DNA from: an uncultured Bacillota bacterium
GTDB lineage: Bacteria > Bacillota > Clostridia > Oscillospirales > Oscillospiraceae
NCBI GenBank assembly: GCA_947426945.1
Contig: CANEFX010000016.1
Coordinates: forward strand, 1 to 59,147
Direction of reading: 5' to 3'
Length of the DNA stretch: 59,147 nucleotides
Positions 22,461-38,413 of this stretch are shown here, in pieces. The notes beneath the pieces were generated by a model. The model saw nothing but the letters and a program-made list of their open reading frames with translations. It had not been told where the DNA came from and searched no databases. The translations under genes were made by a program, and so were the position numbers. Position 1 is the stretch's first letter; the number at the start of each line of letters is the position of its first letter.

Positions 22461-24275
22461 ATGACCTATGATGAATTGAAGGAGAAGGCCCACAGCCTTC
22501 CGCTGAAGCCGGGCGTCTATATTATGCAGGACGCCCAGAGTACCGTCATCTACGTGGGCAAGGCGAAGGCCCTGAAAAACAGGGTGAGCCAGTATTTTCA
22601 GGACTCCGCCTCCCACACGGAAAAGACCAGGGCCATGGTGTCTCAGATCGACCACTTTGACGTCATCATTGCCGACAGTGAGTTCGAGGCACTGGTGCTG
22701 GAATGCTCTCTCATCAAACGGCATCAGCCCCGGTATAATATTCTCCTGAAGGACAGCAAGGGCTATCCCTATGTCCGCCTGTCCAAGGAGGCTTATCCTA
22801 GGTTTTCTCTGGCTTCCCGAGCTGCGGAGGATGGGGCCCGATACTTCGGTCCCTATGCCGGCCGGCACAGTACACAAGGCATTATAGAGGCCCTGCGCAC
22901 CGCTCTGCGCCTGCCCTCCTGCAATAAGAAATTCCCGCGGGACATTGGGAAGGAGCGCCCGTGCCTAAATTTCCACATGGGAAAGTGCGACGGCTACTGC
23001 CGGGGGGATGAACTTCAGGAGCAGCATGGCCAGGCCATCGCCCAGGCGGTCTCTCTGCTGGAAGGCCGGTTCAAAGACGTGCAGAGGGACCTGACCCAGG
23101 AGATGGAACGGGCGGCAGAGGAGCTGCGGTTCGAGCGGGCCGCCCAGCTTCGGGACAGGCTCCGGGCCATCGAACTGCTGGGCAAGCGGCAGAAAGTGAT
23201 TGCCGCATCTCTGGCTGACACCGATGTGGCCGGCTATTTCCGGGGAACGGCCAGGAGCTGTTTTGTGGTTCTCCACTTTGTGGATGGCGAGCTGGCCGCC
23301 AAAGATTTTGATCTGCTGGAGACCCCCATGGAGGAAGAGGAGGGGGCGGTACTGTCCTCCCTGATGCGGGAGTACTACGTGGGCCGCACCCGTCTGCCCA
23401 GGCAGATCCTGATTCCCTGCGAGCTGCCCGACCAGACGCCCCTCACCCGGATGCTGTGCGAACAGGTGGGGTATCGGGTAGAGCTGGTTACCCCCCAGCG
23501 GGGAGCTAAAATGGACCTGATCAAAATGGCCAACCAGAATGCCAGGGAAGAGGTGGAGCGGGCCACCACCCATGAGGAACGGCGCAATAAGCTGCTGGAG
23601 GCCCTGGGGAAAATGCTCAGTTTAGAGGCCCCGCCCAGGCGGATAGAGTCCTACGACATCTCTAACACGGGGGCCAGTGATATCGTGGCCTCCATGGTGG
23701 TCTACATGGACGGCAGGCCCCTGAAACGGGACTACCGCCGGTTCAAGCTCAAGGATATGGAAGGTCCTGACGACTACGCCTCCATGGAGCAGGTGATCAC
23801 CCGGCGCTTCCACCGGTATCTGGATGGGGACGAGAAGTTTTCTGATAAGCCGGATCTGCTTCTCATCGACGGCGGCCATGAGCACGTGAAGGTGGCCCGG
23901 CGGGTATTGGAGACCCTGAATTTGAATATCCCTGCTTTTGGCATGGTGAAGGACGACCGCCACCGTACTCGGGCTCTGGTCCATCCGGACGGCCGTGAGA
24001 TCGGTATACAGTCCATCCCGGCGGTGTTTGCCCTGGTCGGGCAGATCCAGGAGGAGACCCACCGCTTCGCCATCGAATACCACCGTCAACTCCAGGCGGG
24101 CCATGTAAAAACCTCTGTTCTGGATAAAATACCAGGGGTGGGAGAGAAGCGCCGACAGCAGCTTCTGAAGTATTTTAAAACGATCAAAGCCATTAAGGCC
24201 GCCTCCCTGGAGCAGCTTCAGGAGGCTGTGCCAAAAAATACCGCCCAGGCGGTATACGACTACTTTCACTCATGA
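22461..24275 (+). CDS. uvrC: UvrABC system protein C
   Basis: 604 residues. The excinuclease subunit makes both incisions around DNA lesions in nucleotide excision repair. The N-terminal GIY-YIG domain (LKPGVYIMQDAQSTVIYVGK, about 15-90) is followed by the UVR helix pair near 200-235. The RNase H-like domain starts near 395 (ESYDISNTGASDIVASMVVY, LLLIDGGHEHVKVA). The C-terminus is helix-hairpin-helix (DKIPGVGEKRRQQLLKYF). Start ATG follows GGGAAAGGAG. uvrA and uvrB are not in the window. Its 3' end overlaps the convergent XRE gene by 6 bp. Confidence 0.96.
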   Translation: MTYDELKEKAHSLPLKPGVYIMQDAQSTVIYVGKAKALKNRVSQYFQDSASHTEKTRAMVSQIDHFDVIIADSEFEALVLECSLIKRHQPRYNILLKDSKGYPYVRLSKEAYPRFSLASRAAEDGARYFGPYAGRHSTQGIIEALRTALRLPSCNKKFPRDIGKERPCLNFHMGKCDGYCRGDELQEQHGQAIAQAVSLLEGRFKDVQRDLTQEMERAAEELRFERAAQLRDRLRAIELLGKRQKVIAASLADTDVAGYFRGTARSCFVVLHFVDGELAAKDFDLLETPMEEEEGAVLSSLMREYYVGRTRLPRQILIPCELPDQTPLTRMLCEQVGYRVELVTPQRGAKMDLIKMANQNAREEVERATTHEERRNKLLEALGKMLSLEAPPRRIESYDISNTGASDIVASMVVYMDGRPLKRDYRRFKLKDMEGPDDYASMEQVITRRFHRYLDGDEKFSDKPDLLLIDGGHEHVKVARRVLETLNLNIPAFGMVKDDRHRTRALVHPDGREIGIQSIPAVFALVGQIQEETHRFAIEYHRQLQAGHVKTSVLDKIPGVGEKRRQQLLKYFKTIKAIKAASLEQLQEAVPKNTAQAVYDYFHS

Positions 24276-24734
24276 GCCGGATTTCTGCTTTCGCCGCTTC
24301 CAGACCTGGGCCAGGATGTCTTTCAGCACCAGCATGGCGTCCAGCTCGCTGTAGCTGTACTCATCCCGCATAGTCTGGAGCATGGCGTTCAGCTGAACCT
24401 CGTAATATCCGACGTTGACCTGGTTAGGGTACTCCAGGAGGATGGGATACTTTTTGCCCCAGGCTTTGGTCCAGTCAATTTTTTCATCTCTCTTCTCGTC
24501 GCTGCGGGCGATGGCTTGCTCGATCTCCTGAGCATCCAGATCAAAGTCAATCAGCTCGTCCAGGGAAAGGTGGTAGAGCAGCGCTAACCGTTTGGATTGG
24601 CGGATGTCCGGGAGAGTCTCCCCGGTTTCCCACTTGGAGATGGTCTGCCTGCTGACCCCCAGCTTTTCCGCCACCTCCTCCTGAGACAATCCGGATTTCT
24701 TCCGCGCATGGAACAGACTGTTTCCCAAATTCAT
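24270..24734 (-). CDS. XRE family transcriptional regulator
   Basis: 154 residues. The Cro/C1-type helix-turn-helix is at about 5-58 (LFHARKKSGLSQEEVAEKLG, SRQTISKWETGETLPDI). The helical C-terminal region has no domain I can name; it ends with a basic patch. Such proteins often regulate an adjacent gene, but both neighbours here are housekeeping. Divergent from rsmD across 130 bp. Start ATG follows AAAAAGAGAGGTGTCATCAG on the minus strand. Confidence 0.88.
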   Translation of the reverse strand: MNLGNSLFHARKKSGLSQEEVAEKLGVSRQTISKWETGETLPDIRQSKRLALLYHLSLDELIDFDLDAQEIEQAIARSDEKRDEKIDWTKAWGKKYPILLEYPNQVNVGYYEVQLNAMLQTMRDEYSYSELDAMLVLKDILAQVWKRRKQKSGS

Positions 24735-24864
24735 CTGATGACACCTCTCTTTTTAGAATGCCCCCTAAGTGTAAAGGCTTTTGAGTGGAAAATCCACCTA
24801 TTTTTCATTGCAATATTGCTCAGATTCTTAACAGAATTTTATAAGGACAAAAGAGGAGAATTGT

Positions 24865-25422
24865 ATGCGTATTATTTCAGGCACAGCCAGGGGCCGAAAG
24901 CTGAGGGAACCCCAGGGGATGGATACCCGGCCCACCACCGACAAGGTGAAGGAATCCCTGTTCAACATTATCCAATTTGAGCTGGAGGGCCGACGGGTGC
25001 TGGACCTCTTTGCCGGCACCGGCCAGCTGGGGCTGGAGGCCCTGTCCCGGGGGGCGGAGAGCTGCACCTTTGTGGATCAGCGGCGGGAGGCAGCTGCCCT
25101 GGTGCGGGACAATGTGAGACTATGCCGGTTTGAGGAGCAATCTCAGGTGATTCAGGGGGAGGCGCTGTCCTTTCTGGCGGCCTGCCGGGAGAAGTTCGAT
25201 GTGGTTTTCCTTGATCCGCCCTATCAAAGCGGATTGCTGGAAAAATCTTTGGAAATGCTGACACGGTTTGACATTTTACGGGAACATGGTATAATAGTGT
25301 GCGAGAGCGGGGCGGAGTGGATCCTGCCCTCTATGACGCCCCCTTATGAGGCGGGGCGGGAGTACCGGTACGGACAGATCAGGCTGACCCTCTGCCGCCG
25401 GTCCGGGAGCGTGAGACAGTGA
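24865..25422 (+). CDS. rsmD: 16S rRNA (guanine(966)-N2)-methyltransferase
   Basis: 185 residues. Methylates G966 (E. coli numbering) of 16S rRNA with S-adenosylmethionine. MRIISGTARGRKL and RPTTDKVKESLFNI are typical of RsmD. The SAM site is VLDLFAGTGQLGLEALSRGA and the catalytic motif is FLDPPYQSG. AAGAGGAG precedes ATG. Its stop overlaps the coaD GTG start, a widespread rsmD-coaD pairing. Confidence 0.95.
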   Translation: MRIISGTARGRKLREPQGMDTRPTTDKVKESLFNIIQFELEGRRVLDLFAGTGQLGLEALSRGAESCTFVDQRREAAALVRDNVRLCRFEEQSQVIQGEALSFLAACREKFDVVFLDPPYQSGLLEKSLEMLTRFDILREHGIIVCESGAEWILPSMTPPYEAGREYRYGQIRLTLCRRSGSVRQ

Positions 25423-25916
25423 GCACGGCAATCTATCCGGGCAGCTTTGACCCGGTGACCCTGGGGCATCTGAACATTATTAAGCGGGCGGCCGCCTGTT
25501 TTGATAAGGTGATTGTGTGCGTCATGGTCAACTCGAAAAAGACGGGGATGTTTACTCCAGAGGAGCGGGTGGAGCTGCTGGAAAAGTCCACCGCCCGCTT
25601 TCCCAATGTAGAGGTCGATTCATCCAACGAACTGTTGGCCGCCTATGCCAAGCGCCGCCGGGCTCATGTGGTGGTCAAGGGCCTGCGGGCGGTGTCTGAT
25701 TTTGAGCAGGAGGTCCAGATGGCGGTTATTAACCGGCACCTGAATCCCAAGCTGGAGACCATGTTTCTGGCGTCCAGTGAGAAATACACTTATCTCAGCT
25801 CCACTATTGTCAAAGAGATGGCCCGGTATGGGGCTGATCTGGCGGATTTTGTCCCCAGAGAGATCGTGGACGATGTGAACCGGCGTATGAGAGAAATGGA
25901 AGGAAAGGAAGGCTGA
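25419..25916 (+). CDS. coaD: Phosphopantetheine adenylyltransferase
   Basis: 165 residues. Adenylylates 4'-phosphopantetheine to dephospho-CoA, the penultimate step of coenzyme A synthesis. The nucleotidyltransferase motif is YPGSFDPVTLGHLNII (T-x-G-H form), followed by VVKGLRAVSDFEQE and KYTYLSSTIVKEMARYG. The start is GTG 25419, four bases inside the rsmD end (GTGA overlap), so translation is coupled. Confidence 0.96.
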   Translation: MSTAIYPGSFDPVTLGHLNIIKRAAACFDKVIVCVMVNSKKTGMFTPEERVELLEKSTARFPNVEVDSSNELLAAYAKRRRAHVVVKGLRAVSDFEQEVQMAVINRHLNPKLETMFLASSEKYTYLSSTIVKEMARYGADLADFVPREIVDDVNRRMREMEGKEG

Positions 25917-25920
25917 CCAA

Positions 25921-26466
25921 ATGGCAAGCGGTGTGGAGGAACTTTTGGATATGCTCTTTGAGCTGATTGACGAGGCGAAGAACGCTCCTCTGTCCAGCGA
26001 TAAGTGCGTGATTGGGCGGGACCGGGCCTTGGACTTGATTGACGATATCCGCAGCCAGTTTCCCATGGAACTGACCGAGGCCCGGAAGATGATGGCCCGC
26101 CGTGCGGAGATGGAGGCGGAGGCCAAGCGCAAGGCCGATTCCATCGTGCGGTCCGCTGAGGATCGGGCCAAGCAGCTGCTGGCCACCGACAGCATTGCCC
26201 TTCAGGCCAAACAGAGGGCCAATGATATGATGCGTCAGGCGGAGGAGCGCAGCCGGGAGTTGAAGCGATCCGCCAACGAGTATTGCGAAGACGCTCTGCG
26301 CCGCACTGAAGAGGCTGTAGCGGAGGCCTATGATGAGATCAAGCAGTCCCGTGTTCGTTTCCGGGCTGCAGCCGCGGCAACAACGGCGGCCAAGCCGGCC
26401 GCTCCCGGAGCGCCGGCAGGCCCTGTCCAGGGCGGGCGCACTATGTATGATGCAGAAAAGGATTAA
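25921..26466 (+). CDS. Coiled-coil protein of the rsmD-coaD operon
   Basis: 181 residues, almost wholly helical. A long charged coiled coil spans about 45-145 (ARRAEMEAEAKRKADSIVRS, ERSRELKRSANEYCEDALRR). An alanine/proline-rich tail follows (about 145-175) with no membrane anchor. It resembles ATP-synthase subunit b/H or DivIVA-like coiled coils in general pattern only; I do not assign a function. It starts 4 bp after coaD and ends at a terminator, so it belongs to the same operon. Confidence 0.8.
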   Translation: MASGVEELLDMLFELIDEAKNAPLSSDKCVIGRDRALDLIDDIRSQFPMELTEARKMMARRAEMEAEAKRKADSIVRSAEDRAKQLLATDSIALQAKQRANDMMRQAEERSRELKRSANEYCEDALRRTEEAVAEAYDEIKQSRVRFRAAAAATTAAKPAAPGAPAGPVQGGRTMYDAEKD

Positions 26467-26468
26467 AG

Positions 26469-26496
26469 AAAAGCCGCCCAACGGGGCGGCTTTGTT
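26469..26496 (+). terminator. Intrinsic terminator after the rsmD-coaD operon
   Basis: AAAAGCCGCCC, loop AAC, GGGGCGGCTTTGTT. Confidence 0.88.
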
Positions 26497-26573
26497 ATGT
26501 CACACTTCCAAAAGCGCCGCATAGGATAGTACAGCCGTCAACGGCGAATCCAACAGGGAGGGGAGGCGTTTTC

Positions 26574-26645
26574 ATGGGTATCGTGGTGGTACGTTCCCCC
26601 CGGTGCCTGCGGGGGCTGCTGCGCAGGATATTTAAAGTCAAATGA
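26574..26645 (+). CDS. spoVM: SpoVM-like spore-coat anchor peptide
   Basis: A 23-codon ORF, easily missed. It begins ATG 26574, seven bases after a strong GGGAGGGGAGG, and ends TGA 26643-26645. The peptide starts MGIVVVRSPRCLRGLLRRI. It aligns without gaps to the first 17 residues of Bacillus subtilis SpoVM, a 26-residue amphipathic helix. Met1, the helix-breaking Pro9, Leu12, Gly14 and Arg17 match, and the other positions keep hydrophobic or basic character. SpoVM marks the convex forespore membrane and recruits SpoIVA. A sipL-like gene follows within 200 bp and spoIVA lies 5 kb away, which strongly supports the call. A CATAGGATA at 26520 resembles a sigma-E/sigma-K -10. Confidence 0.82.
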   Translation: MGIVVVRSPRCLRGLLRRIFKVK

Positions 26646-26661
26646 CCAATAGAGGTTATTT

Positions 26662-26684
26662 GTTTCCGCTCTGCGGGCGGAAAC
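26662..26684 (+). terminator. Hairpin after the spoVM-like ORF
   Basis: GTTTCCGC (26662-26669) pairs with GCGGAAAC (26677-26684) around a 7-base loop, 16 bases after the stop codon. No U-tract follows, so it may mark an RNA 3' end or only attenuate transcription into sipL. Confidence 0.4.
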
Positions 26685-26828
26685 GGAAAAACTACAGCGG
26701 ATAGGCATACATAGGAGCTCCCGGGCATATAGTGTCAACAAAGTTATAAGTTACCCAAGGGGACTTGTGTTCCCGGCCAAGGGGCGGGAATGCGGGCTGA
26801 TACTATATGTGACAAGGGAGAGGACATC

Positions 26829-28349
26829 ATGGAATTTGAGCGTGATACCATCATCAGCTATGAAACAGCGGCGGAGGTTACCCTGTGCCAGGAGGAGACG
26901 CTGGAGAGCATCGTCCCAGACGCTTGTCCTGATATTTTGAGGATTGTAGACGTATGCGGCCAGGCTGTACTGAGCGGGAAGCAGTCCAGAGAGGGGACGG
27001 CCCAGGTCACCGGTATGGTGCGGGCCTGCATTCTCTACCAGCCGGAGGGGGGCGGCGGCCTGCGGCGGATGGAGGTAAGTCTGCCCTTTACCTGTCAGGC
27101 GGAGGCTCCCGGCCTCACCGAGCGGGGAACAGTGCTGGCCAGTCCCCGGCTGCGCTGTGCTGAGGCCCGGGTCCTCAATCCCCGGAAGGTGCTGCTGCGA
27201 GTGGATTTGGCGGTGGATATCACCGCCTGCCAACCAGTGGAGCGGCCTGTGTGCAGCAGCGTAGCCGATTGCGGAACAGAGAACCTGTGCCAAAGGCAGT
27301 ATCAGGGGGAGGATTACCTGCTGTGTGCTGTACAGGAGAAACCCTTTACGTTTTCTGAACAAGTGCGTGTGCAATCCGGGTCCGGAGAGACGCCTGTCCT
27401 GCTGGCAGCCCGAGTCCAGCCAGTGTGCACGGAGAGTAAGCTCATCGGCTCCAAGCTCATTTTCAAGGGTGTGGTGGATCTCTATCTCCTCCTTCAGGAG
27501 GCAGGGGGCGGACTGTCTGCCAGCCATGAGTCCATGCCCTTCTCCCAGATCATCGAGGCAGCAGGGACCGTTGAGGAGGGAGACTGTCAGGTTGAGGTAG
27601 AGGTAGCTGCCTTCCGGTGTGAGCAGGACTCTGCGGACGAAAGGGAGCTGAATATTGAGCTGGAGCTGCTGGCCCAGGCCCAGATACGCTGCCACCGGCC
27701 GGTGACCCTTCTCCAGGACCTTTACAGTACCAGCCATCTTATGGAGGTGGAACGGGAGAATCAGCCCCTGTGTCGGCTTATTGAGCAGTCGGTGCGGCCC
27801 CAGGCGGTCCGGGAACTGTTGGAGACGGGGGAGATGGTCCGCTCTGTAGTGGACGCCCGTCTGGCCCTGGGGCAGGTGCGCCAGAGTCAGGAGGGGAAGG
27901 AACTGGTCCTCAATGTGGAGAGCTGGATTACCGTCCTTTATCTGGATGAAAATGAGCTGGTCCAAAGTGTTCGGCGCTCTATCCCCGTGGTATGCCGCCT
28001 GGACTGTCCGGAGGGGGCCAAATCTTCCTGCCGCTGTGCCTGTCCGGGGGAGATTTTTGCCGCGCCCGCCGCCGGAGGGGTGGAGGTGCGCTTTACAGTG
28101 GAATTCTGCTGCCTGACCACCGAAACGGCTGCCGTCCCGGCTGTAACCTCCGCCCAGCTGGGAGAGGCCCGAAATGCTGGGGAAGGGGAGCGACCCTCTG
28201 TGGTCCTGAGGATGCCATCTCTTGGTGAGGAGCTGTGGGATATCGCCAAGGCTCACGGCACCACCACAGAGCAAATACTCCAGGCCAATGAACTGGAGGA
28301 GGATATCCTGCCTGCCGGGCGGATGCTTCTGATTCCCAGCAGCAGGTGA
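26829..28349 (+). CDS. sipL: SipL-like spore-coat protein (SPOCS + LysM)
   Basis: 506 residues. SPOCS/DUF3794 regions are visible (VPDACPDILRIVDVCGQAVL near the N-terminus; later strand-rich repeats). A C-terminal LysM domain spans about 460-505 (GEELWDIAKAHGTTTEQIL, then GRMLLIP). This is the architecture of Clostridioides difficile SipL, which binds SpoIVA through its LysM domain to build the basal coat layer. SafA and SpoVID are functional relatives in Bacillus. ATG 26829 is chosen over an upstream in-frame ATG because GGGAGAGG lies nine bases before it. Neighbours spoVM and spoIVA agree. Confidence 0.88.
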   Translation: MEFERDTIISYETAAEVTLCQEETLESIVPDACPDILRIVDVCGQAVLSGKQSREGTAQVTGMVRACILYQPEGGGGLRRMEVSLPFTCQAEAPGLTERGTVLASPRLRCAEARVLNPRKVLLRVDLAVDITACQPVERPVCSSVADCGTENLCQRQYQGEDYLLCAVQEKPFTFSEQVRVQSGSGETPVLLAARVQPVCTESKLIGSKLIFKGVVDLYLLLQEAGGGLSASHESMPFSQIIEAAGTVEEGDCQVEVEVAAFRCEQDSADERELNIELELLAQAQIRCHRPVTLLQDLYSTSHLMEVERENQPLCRLIEQSVRPQAVRELLETGEMVRSVVDARLALGQVRQSQEGKELVLNVESWITVLYLDENELVQSVRRSIPVVCRLDCPEGAKSSCRCACPGEIFAAPAAGGVEVRFTVEFCCLTTETAAVPAVTSAQLGEARNAGEGERPSVVLRMPSLGEELWDIAKAHGTTTEQILQANELEEDILPAGRMLLIPSSR

Positions 28350-28352
28350 AAG

Positions 28353-28382
28353 AACGGGACTCTCCGTAAGGGGAGTCCCGTT
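28353..28382. terminator. Bidirectional terminator between sipL and flagellin
   Basis: AACGGGACTC...CC, loop GTAA, GG...GAGTCCCGTT, placed in the 37 bases between the two convergent genes. Confidence 0.8.
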
Positions 28383-28386
28383 GATA

Positions 28387-31300
28387 TTAGGAAATAAGTT
28401 TGAGCACCTGCTGGGGCTGGCTGCATGCCTGAGCCAGCATGCTTTGCTGCGCCTGAGTCAAAATCTGAAGCTTCACGTGCGTCATCATCTCTTCCGCCAT
28501 ATCGGCGTCCCGGATGCGGCTCTCTGCGTCCACCAGACTTTCCCGTGTATGGGACAGAGATTGAATGGCGTGCTCCAGGCGGTTGTGATCCGCTCCGATT
28601 ACGCTGCGGACCTTGGAGATTGCTAAATTTGCCCGATCGACCCGCTCCAGCCAGATGGAGGCGCGCTGGCCGGAGGCATTCAGGTCTACCACCTCCGGGG
28701 GATTGAGTCGCAAGGTTTTCAGATCCAGATAGGGCAGGTGGATGGGAATGATTTGTGGATCGGGCTCAGAGCCCACATAAATCTCCACCTCAGTATTTTT
28801 TATGGCCACAGAGCCGTCTGCGGGGTAATCCTCAACTTTGCGAATATTGAGGCTGTAAGTAAAGTTGGCCTCCAGGCCGGTCTGTACTTCGCCCAGCTTT
28901 TTTTCACCCTTGACCACCACCTCACCAATGCGCTTTTCCTTTGCCAGCAGAATGGTGGGCGGAGTGCCCACCTCCACGTCGGTAAAATGCTTCAGAGTTG
29001 GGCGGACCTGCTCTACGATATCCTGTACGATCTGGTCCCCGCTGTCTACCTTTGACAGCTCCACCGCAATATTGTGAATGGTTCGTATCTCGTTTGTAGC
29101 CGGATCAGTGACCTTAAATGACGGCGGCACCCGGCCGTCATTTTCCCAACAGAAGAAAACGTTAATATACTCGCCTGAACAGGTGGCGCAGTTGATACGA
29201 AAGCCCCTGCCCAGCAGGTCGCTCAGATTTTCAGAATTGACGGAAGAAAAATCGATTGCCTTCTGAGAGTAGCCGGTATTTGTGCCGCCGGCGTACTGGA
29301 CCAGCTCGCTTCCGGAGATCAGCCCCCTGATTCCTGTAACGCCGTCAGTAACGACAATATTGCTGGAGACCCTTCTGGAGATAAGCAGTTTGGTGTTGTT
29401 GGGATCAGTAGTGTCCAGTTCGACCGTATATGTGTTTTTCCTTTTGCTGTCCATAACCTGCTGTACTTTTTCTTTCAGTTGTTCAAAGGTTGTACAGCCG
29501 GAAATATCAATGTCTGTATAATTGGTGTAAAGGCTGGTTCCATTAGTGAATTCAAATTTATCGCTTTCACTTTGAGTAACACTTGGAGATATATTTTTAT
29601 GATACTCGATTCCAAAACCGCTCCCAACCAGCTTGCTGATATTCTGTTCTGATCCAAGTGAAAAGGGTACTGCAGCCTCTTTTTGGAAGTAGGTGTATCC
29701 GCCTCCAAATACTGCGCTTGTTCCGGGCTTATCTGGTACTGTTTTGCGGGACACGACAGAAATTGAAATGCCTTTAAGCTTGCCGGAAAGGTTCATGGGG
29801 CTGTTAAGGGAGCTGGCAGTAACCGTTATTTTGTCACCGTTAATCCGAATGCTGCTTTTGTCAACGCCGCTTTGCCGGCTGATTATTGACGCAATATTAT
29901 CCACAATGTATTTTTGGGGGTCTGACCCCTTAACGTCAATAATTTGGGGAGTGTTATAAAGGAAATTATCATATAGTGTGCTTTCATCGCCAGGCTGCTT
30001 TAAAGAATGCTTGGAACTGTCATAATACAGATATTTTGTTCCGTTTACAGAAAAAGAACATGGAACTGAAACCGGCGGTACGGTGACCTCACAGACCTCA
30101 ACGCGTTCCCCCGAGGCCGGGGTCGTGATGCTAAAGCGAAAATTCAATGCATTGCTGGTGAACATCGGCGTATCTACCTTGGTGGTTGTAGAAGGAATTG
30201 TGTTCTCATAAATGAATCCGGCAGAGCCATTAGTTGCAAACTGATTTTTACGGGTTACTTTAACCTGTTTTGCAGTGTTGTCATAAGTGGCCTCATAATC
30301 GGTGAAACTGCTGATTTTTTCAGCTAATTTTTTGCCGAAATCATCCCGCGTCATACTGGTTGATGGGGCAAAGTCTTTCAGTGCAAGGGATTCTCCACCT
30401 ATGCGCAGGGTATTTTCCATCATATTAGTGACATTTTCCGGGGTAAGCGTATCACCCAAGCGGGACAAATTAATGGAGGCTGTGGCGACATTGGAGTAAA
30501 CAGGGGTGTTGTTGGCAATCCCTTGTCCGTCCACCTGATTCAGCGACAGGCTGCCCGAAATGTTTTGGGCGGCAACAGTTCCGTTGGCCCAGGCGCCGTC
30601 GCCCTGAGGAGCCTTGTTTGGAAGGGTCATTCCGTCAGCCTCAAAGGTTCCATCGTCCAACTCATGAAGCGGAGCTGTCATCGTTACCATACGAGCATCC
30701 TTGTCTATAACAATGGCTGCCGGCCTGCCATAGGAGCTGCCGGCAGCCAGCCGTGCAAACTGGTTCAGCGCTCTTTCTACGGTGAGGCCAGTTATAGAGA
30801 TGGTACTGTTGTTATAAAGATAGTCGTTTGGTATATTTACTGTTCCGTCAGTAAAGTAATACCTGTAGCTGCCTACTTGGATTGCCCGCCCGTTTAAGGT
30901 ACTGACGTCGTTGAAATCGATACCGTCGTCCAGTTTAAACGTCACTGTAGCGGCCTCCGCCACAGGCGGGTTGTCAAAACCTTCGGTTTTGACAAAATCC
31001 ATTTCACCCCAGGATTCCAGGTCTCCTATGGGCAAGGCAGTAAAGGTCTCGTCATACTCATAGTGGAAATCCGGCTGAACATCGCCCCGGAACAGCCGGA
31101 TTTCGTTAAAGGAGCTTGCCGTGGTAATCCGGTCTACCTCAGAAAAGAGCTGATTCATTTCATTGCTGATGGAGGCCAGCTCCTGCTCGGAATAGATACC
31201 GTTAGCGGCCTGAATACACAGCTCCCGGGCGCGGTGGAGCATGTCGTTGACCTCAGCCAAGGCGCCGTCCGCTGTTTTGGCGATGTTTAAACCCTCCAGC

Positions 31301-31497
31301 GCGTTGCGGCGGCATCGGTCCAGTTCGGTGATATTGGCACGCATGCGCTCCGATACGGCAAGGCCGGAGGCATCGTCCGCCGAGCGGTTGATTCGGTATC
31401 CAGAGGAGAGCTTTTCCAAATTTTTTGCCATGGCGGCGGTGGTTTTCACGCTGGACCGATAGGTGCGCAGAGCAGAAATATTCGTTTGGATGACCAA
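28387..31497 (-). CDS. Very large flagellin
   Basis: The filament subunit of the flagellum, about 1036 residues against the usual 270-500. The conserved D0/D1 ends are intact. The N-terminal 140 residues include TNISALRTYRSSVKTTAAMA and GYRINRSADDASGLAVSERM. The last 90 include RVDRANLAISKVRSVIGADH and AQQSMLAQACSQPQQVLKL. Between them are about 800 residues of variable surface domain with repeated immunoglobulin-like strand patterns and several cysteines (INCATCSGEY, VFFCWEND), which are rare in flagellins. There is no HExxH, so it is not a flagellinolysin. The start is TTG 31497, seven bases after GGGAGG. A sigma-D promoter drives it. No other flagellar gene is in the window. Confidence 0.93.
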   Translation of the reverse strand: MVIQTNISALRTYRSSVKTTAAMAKNLEKLSSGYRINRSADDASGLAVSERMRANITELDRCRRNALEGLNIAKTADGALAEVNDMLHRARELCIQAANGIYSEQELASISNEMNQLFSEVDRITTASSFNEIRLFRGDVQPDFHYEYDETFTALPIGDLESWGEMDFVKTEGFDNPPVAEAATVTFKLDDGIDFNDVSTLNGRAIQVGSYRYYFTDGTVNIPNDYLYNNSTISITGLTVERALNQFARLAAGSSYGRPAAIVIDKDARMVTMTAPLHELDDGTFEADGMTLPNKAPQGDGAWANGTVAAQNISGSLSLNQVDGQGIANNTPVYSNVATASINLSRLGDTLTPENVTNMMENTLRIGGESLALKDFAPSTSMTRDDFGKKLAEKISSFTDYEATYDNTAKQVKVTRKNQFATNGSAGFIYENTIPSTTTKVDTPMFTSNALNFRFSITTPASGERVEVCEVTVPPVSVPCSFSVNGTKYLYYDSSKHSLKQPGDESTLYDNFLYNTPQIIDVKGSDPQKYIVDNIASIISRQSGVDKSSIRINGDKITVTASSLNSPMNLSGKLKGISISVVSRKTVPDKPGTSAVFGGGYTYFQKEAAVPFSLGSEQNISKLVGSGFGIEYHKNISPSVTQSESDKFEFTNGTSLYTNYTDIDISGCTTFEQLKEKVQQVMDSKRKNTYTVELDTTDPNNTKLLISRRVSSNIVVTDGVTGIRGLISGSELVQYAGGTNTGYSQKAIDFSSVNSENLSDLLGRGFRINCATCSGEYINVFFCWENDGRVPPSFKVTDPATNEIRTIHNIAVELSKVDSGDQIVQDIVEQVRPTLKHFTDVEVGTPPTILLAKEKRIGEVVVKGEKKLGEVQTGLEANFTYSLNIRKVEDYPADGSVAIKNTEVEIYVGSEPDPQIIPIHLPYLDLKTLRLNPPEVVDLNASGQRASIWLERVDRANLAISKVRSVIGADHNRLEHAIQSLSHTRESLVDAESRIRDADMAEEMMTHVKLQILTQAQQSMLAQACSQPQQVLKLIS

Positions 31498-31533
31498 ACC
31501 GTCACCTCCCGCCGAAATAAATTTCCTATAGTA

Positions 31534-31560
31534 TTCATCGGACAAATTAAGGGGAACTTA
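31534..31560 (-). promoter_or_regulatory. Sigma-D (sigma-28) promoter of flagellin
   Basis: On the minus strand TAAG (31557-31560), 15 bases, CCGATGAA (31534-31541). The sigma-28 consensus is TAAA-N15-CCGATAT, so spacing is exact and both boxes are close. Confidence 0.8.
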
Positions 31561-31596
31561 AGATATAGTGGTTTTTTAATACATAAAAATTAATTA

Positions 31597-31624
31597 TCAT
31601 ATTCCTTGGCCTGTCTCATACACT
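31597..31624 (+). promoter_or_regulatory. Sigma-E sporulation promoter of spoIVA
   Basis: TCATATT (31597-31603), 13 bases, CATACACT (31617-31624). The Bacillus sigma-E consensus is KMATATT-N13/15-CATACANT, so both boxes match fully. Mother-cell expression of spoIVA is expected. Confidence 0.85.
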
Positions 31625-31666
31625 GTAAGGAACACTACCGGTCACATGGCCGAAGGAGGAATTGCA

Positions 31667-33145
31667 GTGGAAGATCGCAAAATCTATGAGGATATTGCGC
31701 TGCGTACCGAGGGCGATATCTACATCGGCGTTGTGGGGCCGGTCCGGACAGGAAAATCCACTTTTATCAAGCGTTTTATGGAGACGCTGGTTATTCCCAA
31801 TATCGAGAATGTCTACCGCCAGGAGCGGGCCAGGGATGAGCTTCCCCAGAGCGGCTCCGGGCGCACTATCATGACGGCGGAGCCTAAATTTGTCCCCGAG
31901 GAGGCGGTGGCTGTCACAGTGGATGGTGGGGCGGCCTGCCAGATGCGGATGATCGACTGTGTGGGTTACATGGTGGACGGTGCGGTGGGTCAGCTGGAGG
32001 GAGAGAACGAGCGGATGGTGACCACTCCCTGGTTTGAGCACGAGATTCCCATGGCGGAAGCTGCGGAGATCGGCACCCGGAAGGTCATTTCCGAGCATTC
32101 CACAATCGGAGTGGTGGTGACCACTGACGGTACTATTACCGACATTCCACGGGAAGACTATCTGGAGGCGGAGGAGCGGGTCATCTCCGAGCTGAAGGAG
32201 CTGGGCAAGCCCTTCGTGGTTCTTCTCAACTCTGCCAATCCGGATTCCGACCGGGCCCGTGCCATCCGGGCCGACATCGCCCAGCGGTACAATGTTACCT
32301 GCGTGGCGGTGAACTGCCTGGAGTTGGGGGAGGAGGAGATCAGCTCCATCCTGAAAAGCGTGCTCTATGAGTTCCCGATGAAGGAACTGGATCTGTTCCT
32401 GCCTCCCTGGGTGGATGCGCTGCCCCAGGAACACCCCATCAAAGCGGCGCTGTACGCCGCCATTCGGGAGGGTACAGCGCAGCTCAGCCGCATCCGGGAC
32501 ATAGAGAGTGCGGTAAACGCTTTCCGGAACTGTGAAGTGGTCAGCGGAGCCTGGATATCCGGTATCGACTTAGGCACCGGGGTTTCAGCGGCCCGCTTGG
32601 AGCTGCCGCGGTCTCTGTTTTATAACACCCTATCCCAGCAGTCCGGTTTTGAGATTGGAGATGACGGCGACCTGATGGCTCTGTTGACAGAGCTGGCCGG
32701 AGTGAAAAAGGCCTATGACAAGGTGGCAGATGCGCTCCGGCAGGTGGAAGAGACGGGCTACGGCATTGTGGTGCCTCCTATCGATTCCCTGGTGCTGGAG
32801 GAACCGGAAATTATGAAGCAGGGGGGACGGTATGGAGTTCGGCTGAAGGCCAGCGCCCCTTCCATCCATATGATTCGCGCGGATATTGAAACCGAAGTCT
32901 CTCCCATCGTGGGAGGCGAAAAACAGAGTGAGGACATGATAAATTATCTCCTCCAGGAATATGAGGGGGACTCCAGCCGCATCTGGGAGGCCAATATATT
33001 TGGAAAATCTCTCCATGAGCTGGTCAACGAGGATCTGAACGCCAAAATCAACCGTATGCCCGAGGATGCCCGCACTAAACTGCGCGAGACCCTGCAGCGC
33101 ATCATAAATGAGGGCTCCGGCGGACTGATCTGTATCATTCTGTAA
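31667..33145 (+). CDS. spoIVA: Stage IV sporulation protein A
   Basis: The ATPase that polymerises on the outer forespore membrane as the basement layer of the spore coat. From GTG 31667, five bases after GGAGGA, the protein is 492 residues, the same length as the Bacillus protein. Walker A is VGPVRTGKSTFIKRF with Lys30. The switch-like IDCVGYMVDGAVGQ follows. A C-terminal region ends GSGGLICIIL, a hallmark of the family that contacts SpoVM and the membrane. Driven by a sigma-E promoter and closed by a strong terminator. Confidence 0.97.
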   Translation: MEDRKIYEDIALRTEGDIYIGVVGPVRTGKSTFIKRFMETLVIPNIENVYRQERARDELPQSGSGRTIMTAEPKFVPEEAVAVTVDGGAACQMRMIDCVGYMVDGAVGQLEGENERMVTTPWFEHEIPMAEAAEIGTRKVISEHSTIGVVVTTDGTITDIPREDYLEAEERVISELKELGKPFVVLLNSANPDSDRARAIRADIAQRYNVTCVAVNCLELGEEEISSILKSVLYEFPMKELDLFLPPWVDALPQEHPIKAALYAAIREGTAQLSRIRDIESAVNAFRNCEVVSGAWISGIDLGTGVSAARLELPRSLFYNTLSQQSGFEIGDDGDLMALLTELAGVKKAYDKVADALRQVEETGYGIVVPPIDSLVLEEPEIMKQGGRYGVRLKASAPSIHMIRADIETEVSPIVGGEKQSEDMINYLLQEYEGDSSRIWEANIFGKSLHELVNEDLNAKINRMPEDARTKLRETLQRIINEGSGGLICIIL

Positions 33146-33153
33146 ACAGGAAA

Positions 33154-33184
33154 GACCCCCGCCGCCGGCGGGGGTCATGCTTTT
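33154..33184 (+). terminator. Intrinsic terminator after spoIVA
   Basis: GACCCCCGCC, loop GCC, GGCGGGGGTC, then ATGCTTTTG. It lies between spoIVA and the convergent aminotransferase gene. Confidence 0.8.
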
Positions 33185-33192
33185 GATATCAT

Positions 33193-34401
33193 TCAGCAGA
33201 ACACATGCTGCCCGAGGCGGCGGAAAGCCTCCTGGACCCGGGAGAGGGGCAGAGCCAGATTCATGCGGATATGGCAGGGACCGTGGAAGGGACGGCCGTC
33301 CTGCCAGGCCACGCCAACGTCCCAACCCGACTTCAGCACCTGGTCAATGGTCGAGCCATGGGCTTTGCACCACTGGGTGCAGTCCAGAAAGAGCATATAA
33401 GTCCCCTGGGGACGAGCGGTCCACACGCCGGGGAAGCGGTCACGGATGCAGCCGCAGGCATAGTCGACATTGCCCTCCAGCACCCGGCACAGCTCGTCTG
33501 TCCACTGCTCCCCCTCAGAGCTGTAGGCGGCAGCGAGAGCGTGCATAGACAGCACGTTCATAGCGTTGTAGTGGGAAAGGGATCCCTCTTTTTCCAACCG
33601 GTCTCGAAGGTGGTTGTTGTAGACCACGTGATAGCTGCCCACCAGTCCAGCCAGATTGAAGGTTTTGGAGGGCGCGTACAGCGCCACCGTCCTGTTTTTG
33701 GCATCTTGGGAGATGGACTGAGTTGGAATGTGCTGAGAACCGGGGAGGATCAGATCGGACCATATTTCGTCAGAGATGACAGACACGTCGTATTTTGCGT
33801 AAAGCGCCATGGCCTTTTCCAGCTCCCAGCGCTCCCAGACCCGGCCGCAGGGGTTGTGGGGAGAACAGAGAATGGCGGCGTGAATATGCTGTTCGGCCAG
33901 TTTTTGCTCCATGTCCTCAAAGTCCATCCGCCAGATGCCACCGCCGTCTACAGTGAGAGGGCTGTGGACGATGTGATATCCACAGTTAGCCAGGCTGTTG
34001 GTAAAGCCCACATAAGTGGGGGAGTGGACAAGTACCTTGTCTCCCCGGGAGCAGAACACGTTCAGTGCGCTGACTACGCCCCCCAAAACGCCGTTTTCGT
34101 GGCCGATATAGGCCGGTTCCAGGCTAGTTACTCCGTGGCGGCTCCGGTGCCAGCGGATGATTGCGTCATAATAATCCTGAGAGGGGGAGAAATAGCCGTA
34201 GGCCGGGTGCCGGGCCCGGCGGATAATCGCCTCCGTAATGGCGGGAAGAGCTGGGAAATTCATATCGGCTACCCACATGGGGATAGCGTCAAATCCATCC
34301 TTAGGGGCTGCCGGGGCGAAGCCTGATCCGGTTCCCAAAGCGTCCACGGCCAGGGCGTCCTTTCCGCGGCGGTCCAGCACGGTAGTAAAATCGTAGCTCA
34401 T
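33193..34401 (-). CDS. MalY/PatB family aminotransferase (cystathionine beta-lyase type)
   Basis: 402 residues, fold-type I PLP enzyme. MWVADMNFPALPAI is the MalY/PatB N-terminal signature. The PLP lysine is in LYAPSKTFNLAGL. SPHNPCGRVW and SDEIWSDLIL carry the cofactor-binding Asn and Asp. Such enzymes split cystathionine or cysteine conjugates to a thiol, pyruvate and ammonia, though some act as aminotransferases. The start is ATG 34401, ten bases after AAAGGGAG. It is divergent from the Hsp70 gene and monocistronic. Confidence 0.93.
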   Translation of the reverse strand: MSYDFTTVLDRRGKDALAVDALGTGSGFAPAAPKDGFDAIPMWVADMNFPALPAITEAIIRRARHPAYGYFSPSQDYYDAIIRWHRSRHGVTSLEPAYIGHENGVLGGVVSALNVFCSRGDKVLVHSPTYVGFTNSLANCGYHIVHSPLTVDGGGIWRMDFEDMEQKLAEQHIHAAILCSPHNPCGRVWERWELEKAMALYAKYDVSVISDEIWSDLILPGSQHIPTQSISQDAKNRTVALYAPSKTFNLAGLVGSYHVVYNNHLRDRLEKEGSLSHYNAMNVLSMHALAAAYSSEGEQWTDELCRVLEGNVDYACGCIRDRFPGVWTARPQGTYMLFLDCTQWCKAHGSTIDQVLKSGWDVGVAWQDGRPFHGPCHIRMNLALPLSRVQEAFRRLGQHVFC

Positions 34402-34508
34402 ATAATACGCGCTCCCTTTCTGGTGCAAATCGTTTTGCCGGCCGCAGGGCCGCTCTCATACTCTAACACGGTTGTTGACCGCTGTCAATTGCCTCCCGGC
34501 TGCCCCTG

Positions 34509-34537
34509 TTGATTTTTCCTCAGCGAAGCATTATAAT
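34509..34537 (+). promoter_or_regulatory. Promoter of the Hsp70/J-like operon
   Basis: TTGATT (34509-34514), 17 bases, TATAAT (34532-34537). A small hairpin (ACCGTCC-CTTC-GGGCGGT) follows near the expected 5' end. No CIRCE heat-shock operator is seen, so this is not an HrcA-type promoter. Confidence 0.75.
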
Positions 34538-34586
34538 AAAGCAGACAAAAACCGTCCCTTCGGGCGGTGAGAGCGGGTGAGCACAT

Positions 34587-36326
34587 ATGGCTGTCATTGG
34601 TATTGATCTGGGCACCACCAACAGTCTGGCTGCGGTGTGGCGCAACGGAAAGAGCGAGTTGATTCCCAACAGTCTGGGGGACTATCTTACCCCCAGTGTG
34701 GTCAGTGTGGACGACGACGGCTCCATTCTGGTGGGAGCGGCGGCCCGGGACCGGCTGATTTCCCGTCCGGAGTGTACCGCCGCCGGATTTAAGCGAGCTA
34801 TGGGAACTAGCCGCCGGTATGAGCTGGGGGGCCGGATATTCACGGCGGAGGATCTGTCCTCCTTTATCCTGCGCCGCCTGCGGGAGGATGCGGAGGCCTA
34901 TCTGGGCGAAGTGGTGGATGAAGCGGTAATCAGTGTACCTGCCTACTTTGCCGAGGCCCAGCGCTCCGCCACCAAGCGGGCCGGGGCGCTGGCGGGGCTG
35001 ACAGTGGAGCGGCTGGTAAATGAGCCCTCCGCCGCTGCGGTGGCCGGACACATCGGGGAGGGAGAGGACGACAAGGTATGTCTGGTCTTTGATCTGGGGG
35101 GCGGTACGCTGGATGTCTCTCTGGTGGAACGATTTGACAATGTAGTCAGCGTCACCGCTGTCAGCGGGGACAATTTTCTTGGGGGGCGGGATTTTGACGA
35201 GCTCATTGCCCGGGGATTCTGCCAGGACTGCTCCCTTGATTTTGACAGCCTGTCCCGACAGAGGCAGGAGACCCTGATCCGCCAGGCAGAGACCTGCAAA
35301 ATGGCCCTTACCAATCAGGAGCCGGTGATTATGGCGGTGTCTGACGATGAGATTTCGGCCTCTCTGGCCCTTACCCACGAGTGGGTCATCCGCAAGAGCG
35401 GAGCCCTGTTCCAGCGTATGCTGGCCCCGGTGCGTAAGGTGTTTATGGACGCGGGAATAGGGGCGGAGGAGTTGGATGAACTGGTGATGGTGGGGGGCTC
35501 CAGTCACATGCCGGCAGTGCGCCGGTATATCGCGAGGGCTCTGAGCCGGGAGCCCGCCGCCGGTACCAAGCCGGACACCGCCATCGCCATAGGGGCGGGT
35601 ATCTGCTCCGGCATGAAGGTGCGGGCAGAAGATCTGCGAGAGTTGGTCCTCACCGACGTGTGCCCTTTCACCTTGGGCATCAATGTCATCAACGAAGCCC
35701 AGCCGGAGAAGGCGCTTATGTCTCCTATCATAGAGCGAAACAGCGTGTTGCCCTCCAGCAAGGAGGGCACCTACTACACTGCCCGGGACAACCAGCGAGC
35801 CATCGATGTAAGAGTATACCAGGGAGAGCAGCGCTATTGTGACGACAACACCTACCTGGGACATCTGGAGGTTGCCGTGCCCCCCGCTCCCCGGGGGCAG
35901 CAGTATGTCCGGGTACGCTTTACCTATGATATTAACGGTCTGCTGGAGGTGGATGTGGTATCGAAGGAGGGGCAGTCTGCCCAACTGGTCCTCCAGGGCT
36001 CCGGCATGACCGAGGAGGAGGTAGAACAGCGCCTGAAGGAGCTGGAAGCGCTGAAAATGCACCCCAGAGATCAGGAGGGACCCCGGACCCTGATTGCCAG
36101 AGGGGAGCGGCTGTATGCCATGACGGTAGGCGGTATGCGGGACCAGGTGGCCCAGATTCTGGACTGGTACCAGATCCAGCTGTCCAGCCAGGAGCCTATA
36201 CGCATTGCCAAGGCCAGCCGCCGGGCGGCCGCCTTCTTCGACCAGGCGGAGGCCTATATTGGGGTAGGTGATCTGCCGCCCCTGGATTTAAACCCGCTGG
36301 AGGATGACGGGGAGGAAGAGCCATGA
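34587..36326 (+). CDS. Short Hsp70 chaperone (DnaK/HscC-like)
   Basis: 579 residues. The nucleotide-binding domain (about 1-360) has GIDLGTTNSLAAVW, VISVPAYFAEAQRSATKRAG, VFDLGGGTLDVSLVE and ELVMVGGSSHMPAVRRYIAR. A substrate-binding beta domain follows (about 370-480; TPFTLGI-like VCPFTLGINVINEA). The helical lid is shortened and the C-terminus is acidic. No grpE or canonical dnaJ is adjacent, so it is not the main DnaK. The stop overlaps the start of a J-like membrane protein by 4 bp (ATGA), which marks that protein as its likely partner. Confidence 0.9.
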   Translation: MAVIGIDLGTTNSLAAVWRNGKSELIPNSLGDYLTPSVVSVDDDGSILVGAAARDRLISRPECTAAGFKRAMGTSRRYELGGRIFTAEDLSSFILRRLREDAEAYLGEVVDEAVISVPAYFAEAQRSATKRAGALAGLTVERLVNEPSAAAVAGHIGEGEDDKVCLVFDLGGGTLDVSLVERFDNVVSVTAVSGDNFLGGRDFDELIARGFCQDCSLDFDSLSRQRQETLIRQAETCKMALTNQEPVIMAVSDDEISASLALTHEWVIRKSGALFQRMLAPVRKVFMDAGIGAEELDELVMVGGSSHMPAVRRYIARALSREPAAGTKPDTAIAIGAGICSGMKVRAEDLRELVLTDVCPFTLGINVINEAQPEKALMSPIIERNSVLPSSKEGTYYTARDNQRAIDVRVYQGEQRYCDDNTYLGHLEVAVPPAPRGQQYVRVRFTYDINGLLEVDVVSKEGQSAQLVLQGSGMTEEEVEQRLKELEALKMHPRDQEGPRTLIARGERLYAMTVGGMRDQVAQILDWYQIQLSSQEPIRIAKASRRAAAFFDQAEAYIGVGDLPPLDLNPLEDDGEEEP

Positions 36327-38413
36327 GCTGGCCCTGGAGTCAGCTGGGCCTGCCCGGCCCCTCCGGTCTGCCGGAGGTCCGCCGCGCCTACGCTGAAAAG
36401 CTGAAAATTACCCATCCGGAGGAGGACCCGGAGGGATTCCAGCGCCTCCATTCCGCCTACCAGCTGGCCAGCCGCATGGCCCGCCAGAAGCGCAGGGAGG
36501 AGGAGCGGCCCTCTCAGCCGGAGGAAGAGCGCCCTGCGCCGGAGCCGTCTCACACCCAAGAGGGCTTCGACTTTGGCAAGCTTCTGAGTAGTGGAGAAGA
36601 GGATCTGCGCCGCTCCCATGAGGAGGAAGCGGATTTCGATTTCGACGAGCTGTTGCGGGAGGACGAGACGCCGCCCCGTCCGGCGCAGGAGGAGGAGCGG
36701 GACTTTGACTTTGATCGACTTTTCGCCGAAGGGGAGGCGGAGCGGGCGGATGCCCGCCGCCGCCGGGCGGAGCAGCGCCGCCGGGCTCAGGCCCAGGCTG
36801 AGGCGTGGAAGCGGGAGCGCCAGAAGGCTCAGGAGTGGACCCGGAAGCGGGAACAATGGCAGCGTGAGGGGCAGCGAAACACTTATGAGCAGAACCAGCG
36901 GGTGCGCTGCGACCAGGAGCAGCTCCGATGGCAGAACACCGAGACCGTTCTGCACACCATCGACATGCTGTATAACGCCCGGGCAGACCGGGAGGTCTGG
37001 GAGAAGTTTTTCCAGAGCGAGCTGTTCCAGCAGACCAAGGGCAGTCTGGATCTGATCTTCGGTCTGGAGGACTTTGTCAGCTCCAGGAGCCTGTCTCAGG
37101 AGGCCAGGCTGGCGCTGTTTCTGGCTTACAGCTTTGACAAGGGAGTGCTCCGGCCTGAGCTGCGGCCCCTGTACCAGATGCTGCTCCCCGCCTGGAGAGC
37201 GGCAAGGCGGGAGAAGGACAGGGAGAGAAACCTGGCTATTTTGGGCGTGATTCTGGGCTTGGTGTTTCCCTTTATCCTTGTTCCTCTTTTGGATTTGGGG
37301 CTGATTCCAGCTTTCGTTGTCAGTTTGAGCATGGTCTGGGTCGTTTGGGTGGTCCGAAAGGCCGTCAAGACTGGAAATCTGGAAAAACAGGCCAGAGGCG
37401 TGAAGGTCAGCAAGAAGCAGGAGCGGCGGGCAGTATTCTATGGGATTTTAGCGGCGGCGGCATTGTTTCTGGTGATGGCGCTGCCCAATCTGAACCTGGC
37501 TGAGCGTCTGAAGAAATTGGTGCCTGCCAGGGACCCGCGGGAGCAGGTGTGCCGGTATGTTGAGCAGGACTTTGGAGTGAAGGTGGATTCTCAGTACAAC
37601 ATGAGTGAATCCTATGCTACCGACGCATATGACAATGTGTTTTACCTGGAGGACCATCCGAACCGGAAGTTCCTGGCCGGCCCAGACGGGGAACGGGACA
37701 TAAAAAATGGCAAGCCGGGCTATACCACCAACCTTCCGGAGATGATGTTGCTCTGGACTTTGAAGGACTTTGCGTTCCAATGGAAAATTTATGACGTGGA
37801 CAGCCTGGATCAAAATATGGAGCATTGGGAGACCGCCGGAATTTTTCTCATTTCTCTCCCGGAGAGAGGAGGGGAGGACATCCTCGACGGTCTGGGCGAG
37901 TTGCTGGAAGAGGTTCGCCAGGAGAAGTGGTACAAGGCCCTGACTCCGCAATGCCAAATCGTGCTGTGCAGCCGGAAAATGAGAGAGGGCCGCATTGTTC
38001 TTATCCGTGTACATCCCGCTACCGAGCTGTATTCGGTTTCTCAGGCCCGGCGACTGTACGAGGAGGGCTTTGCCCACTCTGTCTATGCCCAATTGTTGAG
38101 AGAGCTGGAGTTGGACCGGGACTTCCTCCACGATGGAGAGGTTCCCTACACGCTGACCAGCGGCGGAATGGCGGAGATAAAAGGTGAGGAGTGCTGTAAG
38201 CTCTATGGACTGAACAGTGAAAGCAGTGTAGCCTGTGAGTATTATGTCAACGAGAAGGGAACCGCCGTCTACTGTGTCCCCGGCGATTTCTGGGAAACAG
38301 GCGGAACGGAGGAGCAGATCAGCTTCTACCGGCTCCTGCATTGGAAGGATGTAGACAATAACCCGCTGGGAATCGTAAATTTGTATTACCCATGGCTGAT
38401 ACCGAATTATTGA
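36323..38413 (+). CDS. Membrane J-domain-like protein coupled to Hsp70
   Basis: 696 residues. Residues 1-55 resemble a J domain (VRRAYAEKLKITHPEEDPEG, FQRLHSAYQLASRMA), but the essential HPD reads HPE. Then three 23-residue repeats carry GFDFGKLL (81), DFDFDELL (104) and DFDFDRLF (127) in an acidic linker. A highly charged coiled coil follows to about 215. Membrane segments occur at about 303-345 (probably two) and 370-392. A C-terminal domain of 300 residues has no domain I recognise. It likely brings the Hsp70 to the membrane (inference). Start ATG overlaps the Hsp70 stop. Confidence 0.78.
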   Translation: MSWPWSQLGLPGPSGLPEVRRAYAEKLKITHPEEDPEGFQRLHSAYQLASRMARQKRREEERPSQPEEERPAPEPSHTQEGFDFGKLLSSGEEDLRRSHEEEADFDFDELLREDETPPRPAQEEERDFDFDRLFAEGEAERADARRRRAEQRRRAQAQAEAWKRERQKAQEWTRKREQWQREGQRNTYEQNQRVRCDQEQLRWQNTETVLHTIDMLYNARADREVWEKFFQSELFQQTKGSLDLIFGLEDFVSSRSLSQEARLALFLAYSFDKGVLRPELRPLYQMLLPAWRAARREKDRERNLAILGVILGLVFPFILVPLLDLGLIPAFVVSLSMVWVVWVVRKAVKTGNLEKQARGVKVSKKQERRAVFYGILAAAALFLVMALPNLNLAERLKKLVPARDPREQVCRYVEQDFGVKVDSQYNMSESYATDAYDNVFYLEDHPNRKFLAGPDGERDIKNGKPGYTTNLPEMMLLWTLKDFAFQWKIYDVDSLDQNMEHWETAGIFLISLPERGGEDILDGLGELLEEVRQEKWYKALTPQCQIVLCSRKMREGRIVLIRVHPATELYSVSQARRLYEEGFAHSVYAQLLRELELDRDFLHDGEVPYTLTSGGMAEIKGEECCKLYGLNSESSVACEYYVNEKGTAVYCVPGDFWETGGTEEQISFYRLLHWKDVDNNPLGIVNLYYPWLIPNY

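Follow-up and report, generated by a model that had tools for sequence, protein, structure and literature searches.

We describe here three sporulation genes, spoVM, sipL and spoIVA, that lie near one another in a 59,147-nucleotide stretch of the genome of a likely gut bacterium of the Oscillospiraceae (contig CANEFX010000016.1; this whole stretch is referred to in the following as the window). The best overall explanation, which we hold with good confidence, is that SpoVM, SipL and SpoIVA form a linked coat-foundation set with the mechanism and origin proposed below; the trio is likely inherited, and likely works, as one set. The three proteins belong to known families, and no report of the gene cluster was found in the open-licence literature. 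In the genomes sampled, the linkage is specific to the order, taken as Oscillospirales in all counts. An earlier, sequence-only reading of the window had suggested coordinated expression or inheritance of the whole coat platform in this lineage. The grouping is not special to the lineage: it is of greater age, other genomes have it in a tighter form, and that in the window appears to be a loosened one.

The spoVM gene (26574–26645, plus strand, 23 codons and a stop) encodes the peptide MGIVVVRSPRCLRGLLRRIFKVK and is preceded by the ribosome site GGGAGGGGAGG, exactly where the sequence-only reading had placed a match to SpoVM. Using a profile of 13 SpoVMs from other families, none of them found beside sipL, the peptide scored 38.4 bits. 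The next-best open reading frame (ORF) of the window reached 6.5 bits, and among 48,202 ORFs of 20 shuffled windows the highest score was 11.0 bits. With a second profile, built on three peptides of the rsgA-linked site, the peptide scored 33.5 bits and the top shuffled ORF 13.1 bits. Within its own genome, the locus is the sole match at E ≤ 10 to NF033436, the SpoVM model of NCBIfam (residues 1–23, 14 bits, E 0.22). It is also the sole match at E ≤ 5 to A1, an alignment of SpoVM peptides, thus spoVM is present as a single copy. The ORF combines a length in the SpoVM range of about 22–30 residues and Pro9 with a full-length profile match well above chance. By these profile matches and its conservation it is assigned to the SpoVM family.

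Conservation of Pro9, Gly14 and Arg17 in relatives had been set beforehand as a test of this assignment. All three residues are kept in 30 of 30 genus loci read; among two additional members of the genus, G028 carries Val17. Order-wide, in an alignment of 23 rows, Pro9 is nearly invariant and position 14 is variable; a passage of PMC5607322 terms Pro9 completely conserved. The Pro9 column holds serine in G058 (L044) and glycine in G050 (L095). Peptide identity is 85% where the sipL proteins are 55–65% identical, and the fourfold sites of spoVM differ at 28% (157 pairs). Judged from these sequence comparisons, the spoVM peptide is under selection at the protein level.

The sipL gene (26829–28349, plus strand) starts 183 bp after the end of the spoVM ORF, a spacing that agrees with the earlier reading. 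Its product of 506 aa is identified as SipL by its Pfam domains, namely three SPOCS stretches (PF12673, 79 bits) and one C-terminal LysM (33 bits). That it is a sporulation protein, as had been proposed, is borne out by this identity and by a locus that is common with spoIVA in many genomes. All 28 SipL rows keep the tryptophan of LWDIAK, a residue that presumably corresponds to the Trp475 through which, together with the LysM domain, SipL of Clostridioides difficile binds SpoIVA according to a passage of PMC6436350. By analogy, the LysM of the window SipL is predicted to bind SpoIVA. A predicted SipL model showed a high-confidence all-beta SPOCS region at residues 1–447, and the whole model, searched against solved structures, gave no clear relative.

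The spoIVA gene (31667–33145, plus strand) encodes a full-length protein of 492 aa with all three Pfam domains (ATPase, middle and C-terminal), which scored 710 bits with the SpoIVA model TIGR02836, well above its curated cut-off of 459.9 bits. Its start is most likely the GTG at 31667 and not the longest-ORF start at 31646, because the ribosome binding site AAGGAGGA precedes 31667 and recurs at the same place in relatives. The full-length spoIVA with a sigma-E promoter proposed earlier thus stands with regard to gene and promoter, and its start is corrected.

To describe the linkage, genes at most 3 kb apart were counted as linked in three samples: 37 genomes of the genus and 147 of the order, both including the window's own and the latter each at least 90% complete, and 147 genomes of the class. 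The 141 class genomes outside the order are the basis of all outside-order counts. Every one of the 33 genus genomes with both genes has spoVM immediately 5′ of sipL in the same orientation, with 76–186 bp between hits; the genus genomes without both (G002, G004, G024 and G033) are 58–81% complete. Of the 147 order genomes, 119 gave a spoVM hit, 110 a sipL hit and 135 a spoIVA hit. Here spoVM is linked to sipL in 43 of the 96 genomes that have the two genes: spoVM is upstream on the same strand in 33 of these pairs (76–496 bp), upstream and divergent in nine, and downstream in one. spoIVA follows directly after sipL in 61 of 108 genomes, with order and strand identical in all of these pairs, and 31 of the 95 genomes that have all three genes carry them as one group. 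Outside the order none of these linkages was seen (spoVM–sipL 0/65, sipL–spoIVA 0/101, all three 0/62). The spoVM search models were built from the order, so that spoVM outside it was likely missed in part; the contrast for sipL–spoIVA, 61/108 in the order against 0/101 outside, is unaffected by spoVM detection. A different neighbourhood was found in 4 of 65 outside-order genomes, where spoVM and spoIVA are at most 3 kb apart, always divergent and three times at 367–406 bp. Divergent spoVM beside spoIVA was noted in G198 (L275), G227 and G311, of one family outside the order, and one order genome, G086 (L274), has spoVM directly 5′ of spoIVA and away from sipL.

Insight on the origin of the cluster can be gained from rsgA, which was found in 136 of the 147 order genomes. 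Of the 111 genomes that carry rsgA as well as spoVM, 44 have the two at most 3 kb apart, and in 40 of these rsgA precedes spoVM in the same orientation. The complete row rsgA-spoVM-sipL-spoIVA is seen in 14 order genomes; 20 have rsgA-spoVM but no sipL close by, and 25, including that of the window, have spoVM-sipL but no rsgA close by. In several families, neighbour scans showed RsgA ahead of the cluster. Pfam confirmed TPK (thiN) in three loci, RsgA in two and PASTA in one. Thiamine pyrophosphokinase was present in both of the gaps of about 900 bp that were read, with a PASTA protein upstream in one locus. The fullest form of the cluster is prkC-rsgA-(thiN)-spoVM-sipL-spoIVA. In B. subtilis, the neighbourhood is prpC-prkC-cpgA-rpe-thiN-spoVM, with spoVM after thiN. 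Because rsgA-spoVM also occurs without sipL nearby, and because of this gene order in B. subtilis, it is likely that sipL-spoIVA joined an old rsgA-spoVM site and that spoVM kept its old place. A passage of PMC6449344 names the prpC-prkC-cpgA operon with its neighbours rpe and thiN, and there spoVM is not named. The cluster predates the window's lineage.

In the case of the window itself, the locus is likely a loosened derivative of a tighter one, because the genus has tight rsgA-flanked loci and because the cargo between sipL and spoIVA varies by species. With short flanks, rsgA was directly upstream in 14 of 32 genus loci, and in all 14 SipL is less than 75% identical to that of the window. 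coaD and a coiled-coil gene lie upstream instead in four of the 32 (the window and three near relatives), and neither rsgA nor coaD is within the flank in 14. Among 27 named loci with longer flanks, coaD was found in 10, rsgA in eight and both in none; the rsgA of the window's genome sits on a separate contig, C10. Near relatives of the locus include Lawsonibacter, Flintibacter muris, Colidextribacter and Oscillospiraceae bacterium. The sipL–spoIVA gap measures 133–170 bp in 11 of 12 measurable rsgA-flanked genus loci (2,040 bp in G008). Over 32 genus genomes it is below 400 bp in 15 and 0.5–3.4 kb in nine; in the remaining eight a large distance (52 kb in G021) or a contig boundary separates the two genes, which in part may reflect assembly breaks. 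In the window the gap is 3,320 bp, and the window was therefore left out of the three-gene count.

This gap is occupied by a flagellin ORF of 1052 aa on the minus strand (28387–31545, identified by Pfam), which is likely an insertion outside the ancestral cluster. The three genes are thus all on the plus strand and non-contiguous: the grouping previously noted holds as a linkage conserved in genus and order, and not as a contiguous trio in the window. The sipL–spoIVA gap is a site that takes up varied cargo across species. The flagellin ORF carries a flagellin domain at each end, N and C, separated by about 800 residues, and among the loci compared a flagellin in this gap was seen only in the window and G027 (L098, L117). 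The gaps of L099, L101 and L103 hold a PNPOx-type protein with an NMN transporter, a MatE transporter, or a CdiA_C-like ORF. Downstream of spoIVA, at 34587–38413 (plus strand), follow a gene for an Hsp70-like protein and a 696-aa gene. The Hsp70 gene also has spoIVA or sipL nearby in a number of other loci of the genus, e.g. L116, L123, L128 and L127.

Promoters were predicted with a loose pattern based on the sigma-E consensus. Each of the three window genes appears to have its own sigma-E-like promoter on the plus strand: TCACACT-N13-CATAGGAT for spoVM (26500–26527), GCATACA-N14-CATATAGT for sipL (26705–26733) and TCATATT-N13-CATACACT for spoIVA (31597–31624), the last starting 70 bp upstream of the GTG. 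The same pattern found a box 5′ of spoVM in 15 of 30 genus loci (mean 0.1 and maximum 2 in 200 rounds of shuffling), 5′ of sipL in 22 of 30 (mean 0.3, maximum 3) and 5′ of spoIVA in 20 of 23 related sequences (mean 0.4, maximum 3); as these counts include related sequences, they are not independent events. Terminator-like hairpins, again on the plus strand and with a presumed role as terminators, follow the upstream coaD and coiled-coil genes (26470–26493, −18.1 kcal/mol, z −4.0), sipL (28353–28382, −25.5 kcal/mol, z −6.9) and spoIVA (33154–33176, z −4.2). A single operon, i.e. contiguous genes on one strand with no internal promoter or terminator, is not what the window has, and contiguous three-gene layouts are present in other families. 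Because of the hairpin after sipL and the separate spoIVA promoter, we expect separate transcripts under one sigma factor: spoVM, sipL and spoIVA are likely co-expressed, and a single transcript spanning all three is not likely in this genome.

Several observations weigh against a SpoVM-SipL-SpoIVA set inherited and working as one. Regarding SpoVM, NF033436 aligns to the ORF over its full length at only 16.4 bits, under its naming cut-off of 31 bits, and the Pfam SpoVM model PF08183 gives no match to it. The 13 peptides behind the first profile were found via A1, whose row 1 is the window's own peptide, which makes this test less than fully independent; evidence independent of A1 comes from the rsgA neighbourhood that three profile peptides have. 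SpoVM was undetected in 28 of 147 order genomes, including 4 of 13 of the window's own family, and the SpoVM models matched in only 78 of the 147 class-sample genomes, where misses outside the order are likely. In C. difficile, SpoVM is described in a passage of PMC5607322 as largely dispensable. Regarding linkage, spoVM–sipL is unlinked in 53 of 96 and sipL–spoIVA in 47 of 108 order genomes, part of which contig breaks may explain. Parsimony on a tree of 95 SpoIVA proteins (89 from the order, 6 outgroup; quick method) required at least 14 changes for spoVM–sipL and at least 10 for sipL–spoIVA, with gain and loss indistinguishable. Finally, the trio in the window looks like separate transcription units.

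Three other explanations were considered. That the 23 codons are a leader peptide or a regulatory start of the sipL mRNA, and not SpoVM, would fit an ORF just 5′ of sipL whose fourfold sites are less variable than those of sipL. However, like peptides occur away from sipL (the 20 genomes with rsgA near and sipL not), the peptide gene is transcribed away from sipL in 9 genomes, the spacing to sipL varies from 73 bp to 496 bp, and a profile of unlinked SpoVMs picks up the window ORF; nor is there an Rfam match at gathering score within 24000–36500. This explanation is highly improbable and close to refuted. The patchy distribution, with its at least 14 changes for spoVM–sipL, could also mean that the trio was put together several times independently within the order, and the spoVM genes beside spoIVA and away from sipL (G086, and divergently the three genomes of one outside-order family) point the same way. 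We consider this unlikely, given that all 61 sipL–spoIVA pairs and 33 of the 43 spoVM–sipL pairs agree in order and strand, and that an rsgA neighbour is common to families f1, f2, f13, f15 and f23. Because gene order and strand are identical, few gains and many losses of linkage are favoured.

A further possibility is that the linkage is neutral, the genes being neighbours by descent with nothing selecting for it. The frequent breaks counted by parsimony, the opening of genus loci by cargo as unrelated as flagellin, MatE transporter, PNPOx-type protein with NMN transporter and CdiA_C-like ORF, and the apparently separate promoters would all be expected in that case. Yet spoVM stays beside sipL in all 33 genus genomes although sipL–spoIVA opens up, and their linkage extends over ten order families, with divergent pairs in three (f6, f7 and f19). 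Neutral linkage is thus a serious but doubtful account.

For the preferred reading of a linked coat-foundation set, the following mechanism is proposed. By inference from its family, the SpoVM peptide would form an amphipathic helix inserted in the convex outer forespore membrane, where it would capture SpoIVA, which would polymerise with ATP. SipL would bind SpoIVA through its LysM and hold the next coat layer with its SPOCS beta-domains. As to origin, the sipL-spoIVA pair likely landed, in some ancestor inside the order, behind spoVM at the older prkC-rsgA-(thiN)-spoVM site, and many breaks of the cluster would have followed. Within the window's subclade, the cluster would have left rsgA, come beside coaD and been opened between sipL and spoIVA by the flagellin gene, an opening that separate promoters would make tolerable. 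A bolder version is quite improbable in our view: that SpoVM was never replaced by SipL in the order, that SipL also contacts SpoVM in a three-part anchor, and that the module was built at the PrkC kinase–RsgA ribosome-checkpoint locus, with the coat foundation perhaps tied to PrkC signalling during sporulation.

According to a passage of PMC7985256, the role of SpoVM is fulfilled by SipL in Clostridia. The retained, linked spoVM argues against such a takeover, and its being kept under selection beside sipL suggests that C. difficile does not represent the Clostridia as a whole. Because of its shortness, SpoVM is often overlooked: a table of sporulation ORFs missed in annotation, seen in an excerpt of PMC3533761, gives 70 for spoVM, and the same excerpt leaves open whether further clostridia have distant SpoVM versions. 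The sipL and rsgA neighbourhoods offer a positional rule by which spoVM can be located in gut Oscillospiraceae and relatives. The earlier suggestion to use the grouping as a guide to overlooked spoVM genes is well illustrated by the window, whose own spoVM falls below the naming cut-off.

Compared to SpoVM of B. subtilis and C. difficile, the window peptide is alike in length class (22–30 residues in 23 rows), Pro9 and the pattern of basic and hydrophobic residues. It differs in that most genus peptides have Gly2 and Cys11, and in that the window's own, with 23 residues, is under the NCBIfam cut-off, missed by Pfam and upstream of sipL. The B. subtilis site of spoVM has its likeness in the order, where spoVM is likewise placed near rsgA in 44 of 111 genomes. 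SipL of C. difficile (CD3567) has, according to a passage of PMC6436350, three DUF3794/SPOCS domains and a C-terminal LysM, as does the window SipL. The SipL sequence diverges fast, with 18–33% identity to the window's in 18 of the 27 other SipL rows aligned. The window sipL adjoins spoVM, an arrangement unmentioned in those parts of the C. difficile literature that were consulted. In the case of SpoIVA, the window protein is the same full three-domain protein as the known one, and the position of its gene is the sole difference.

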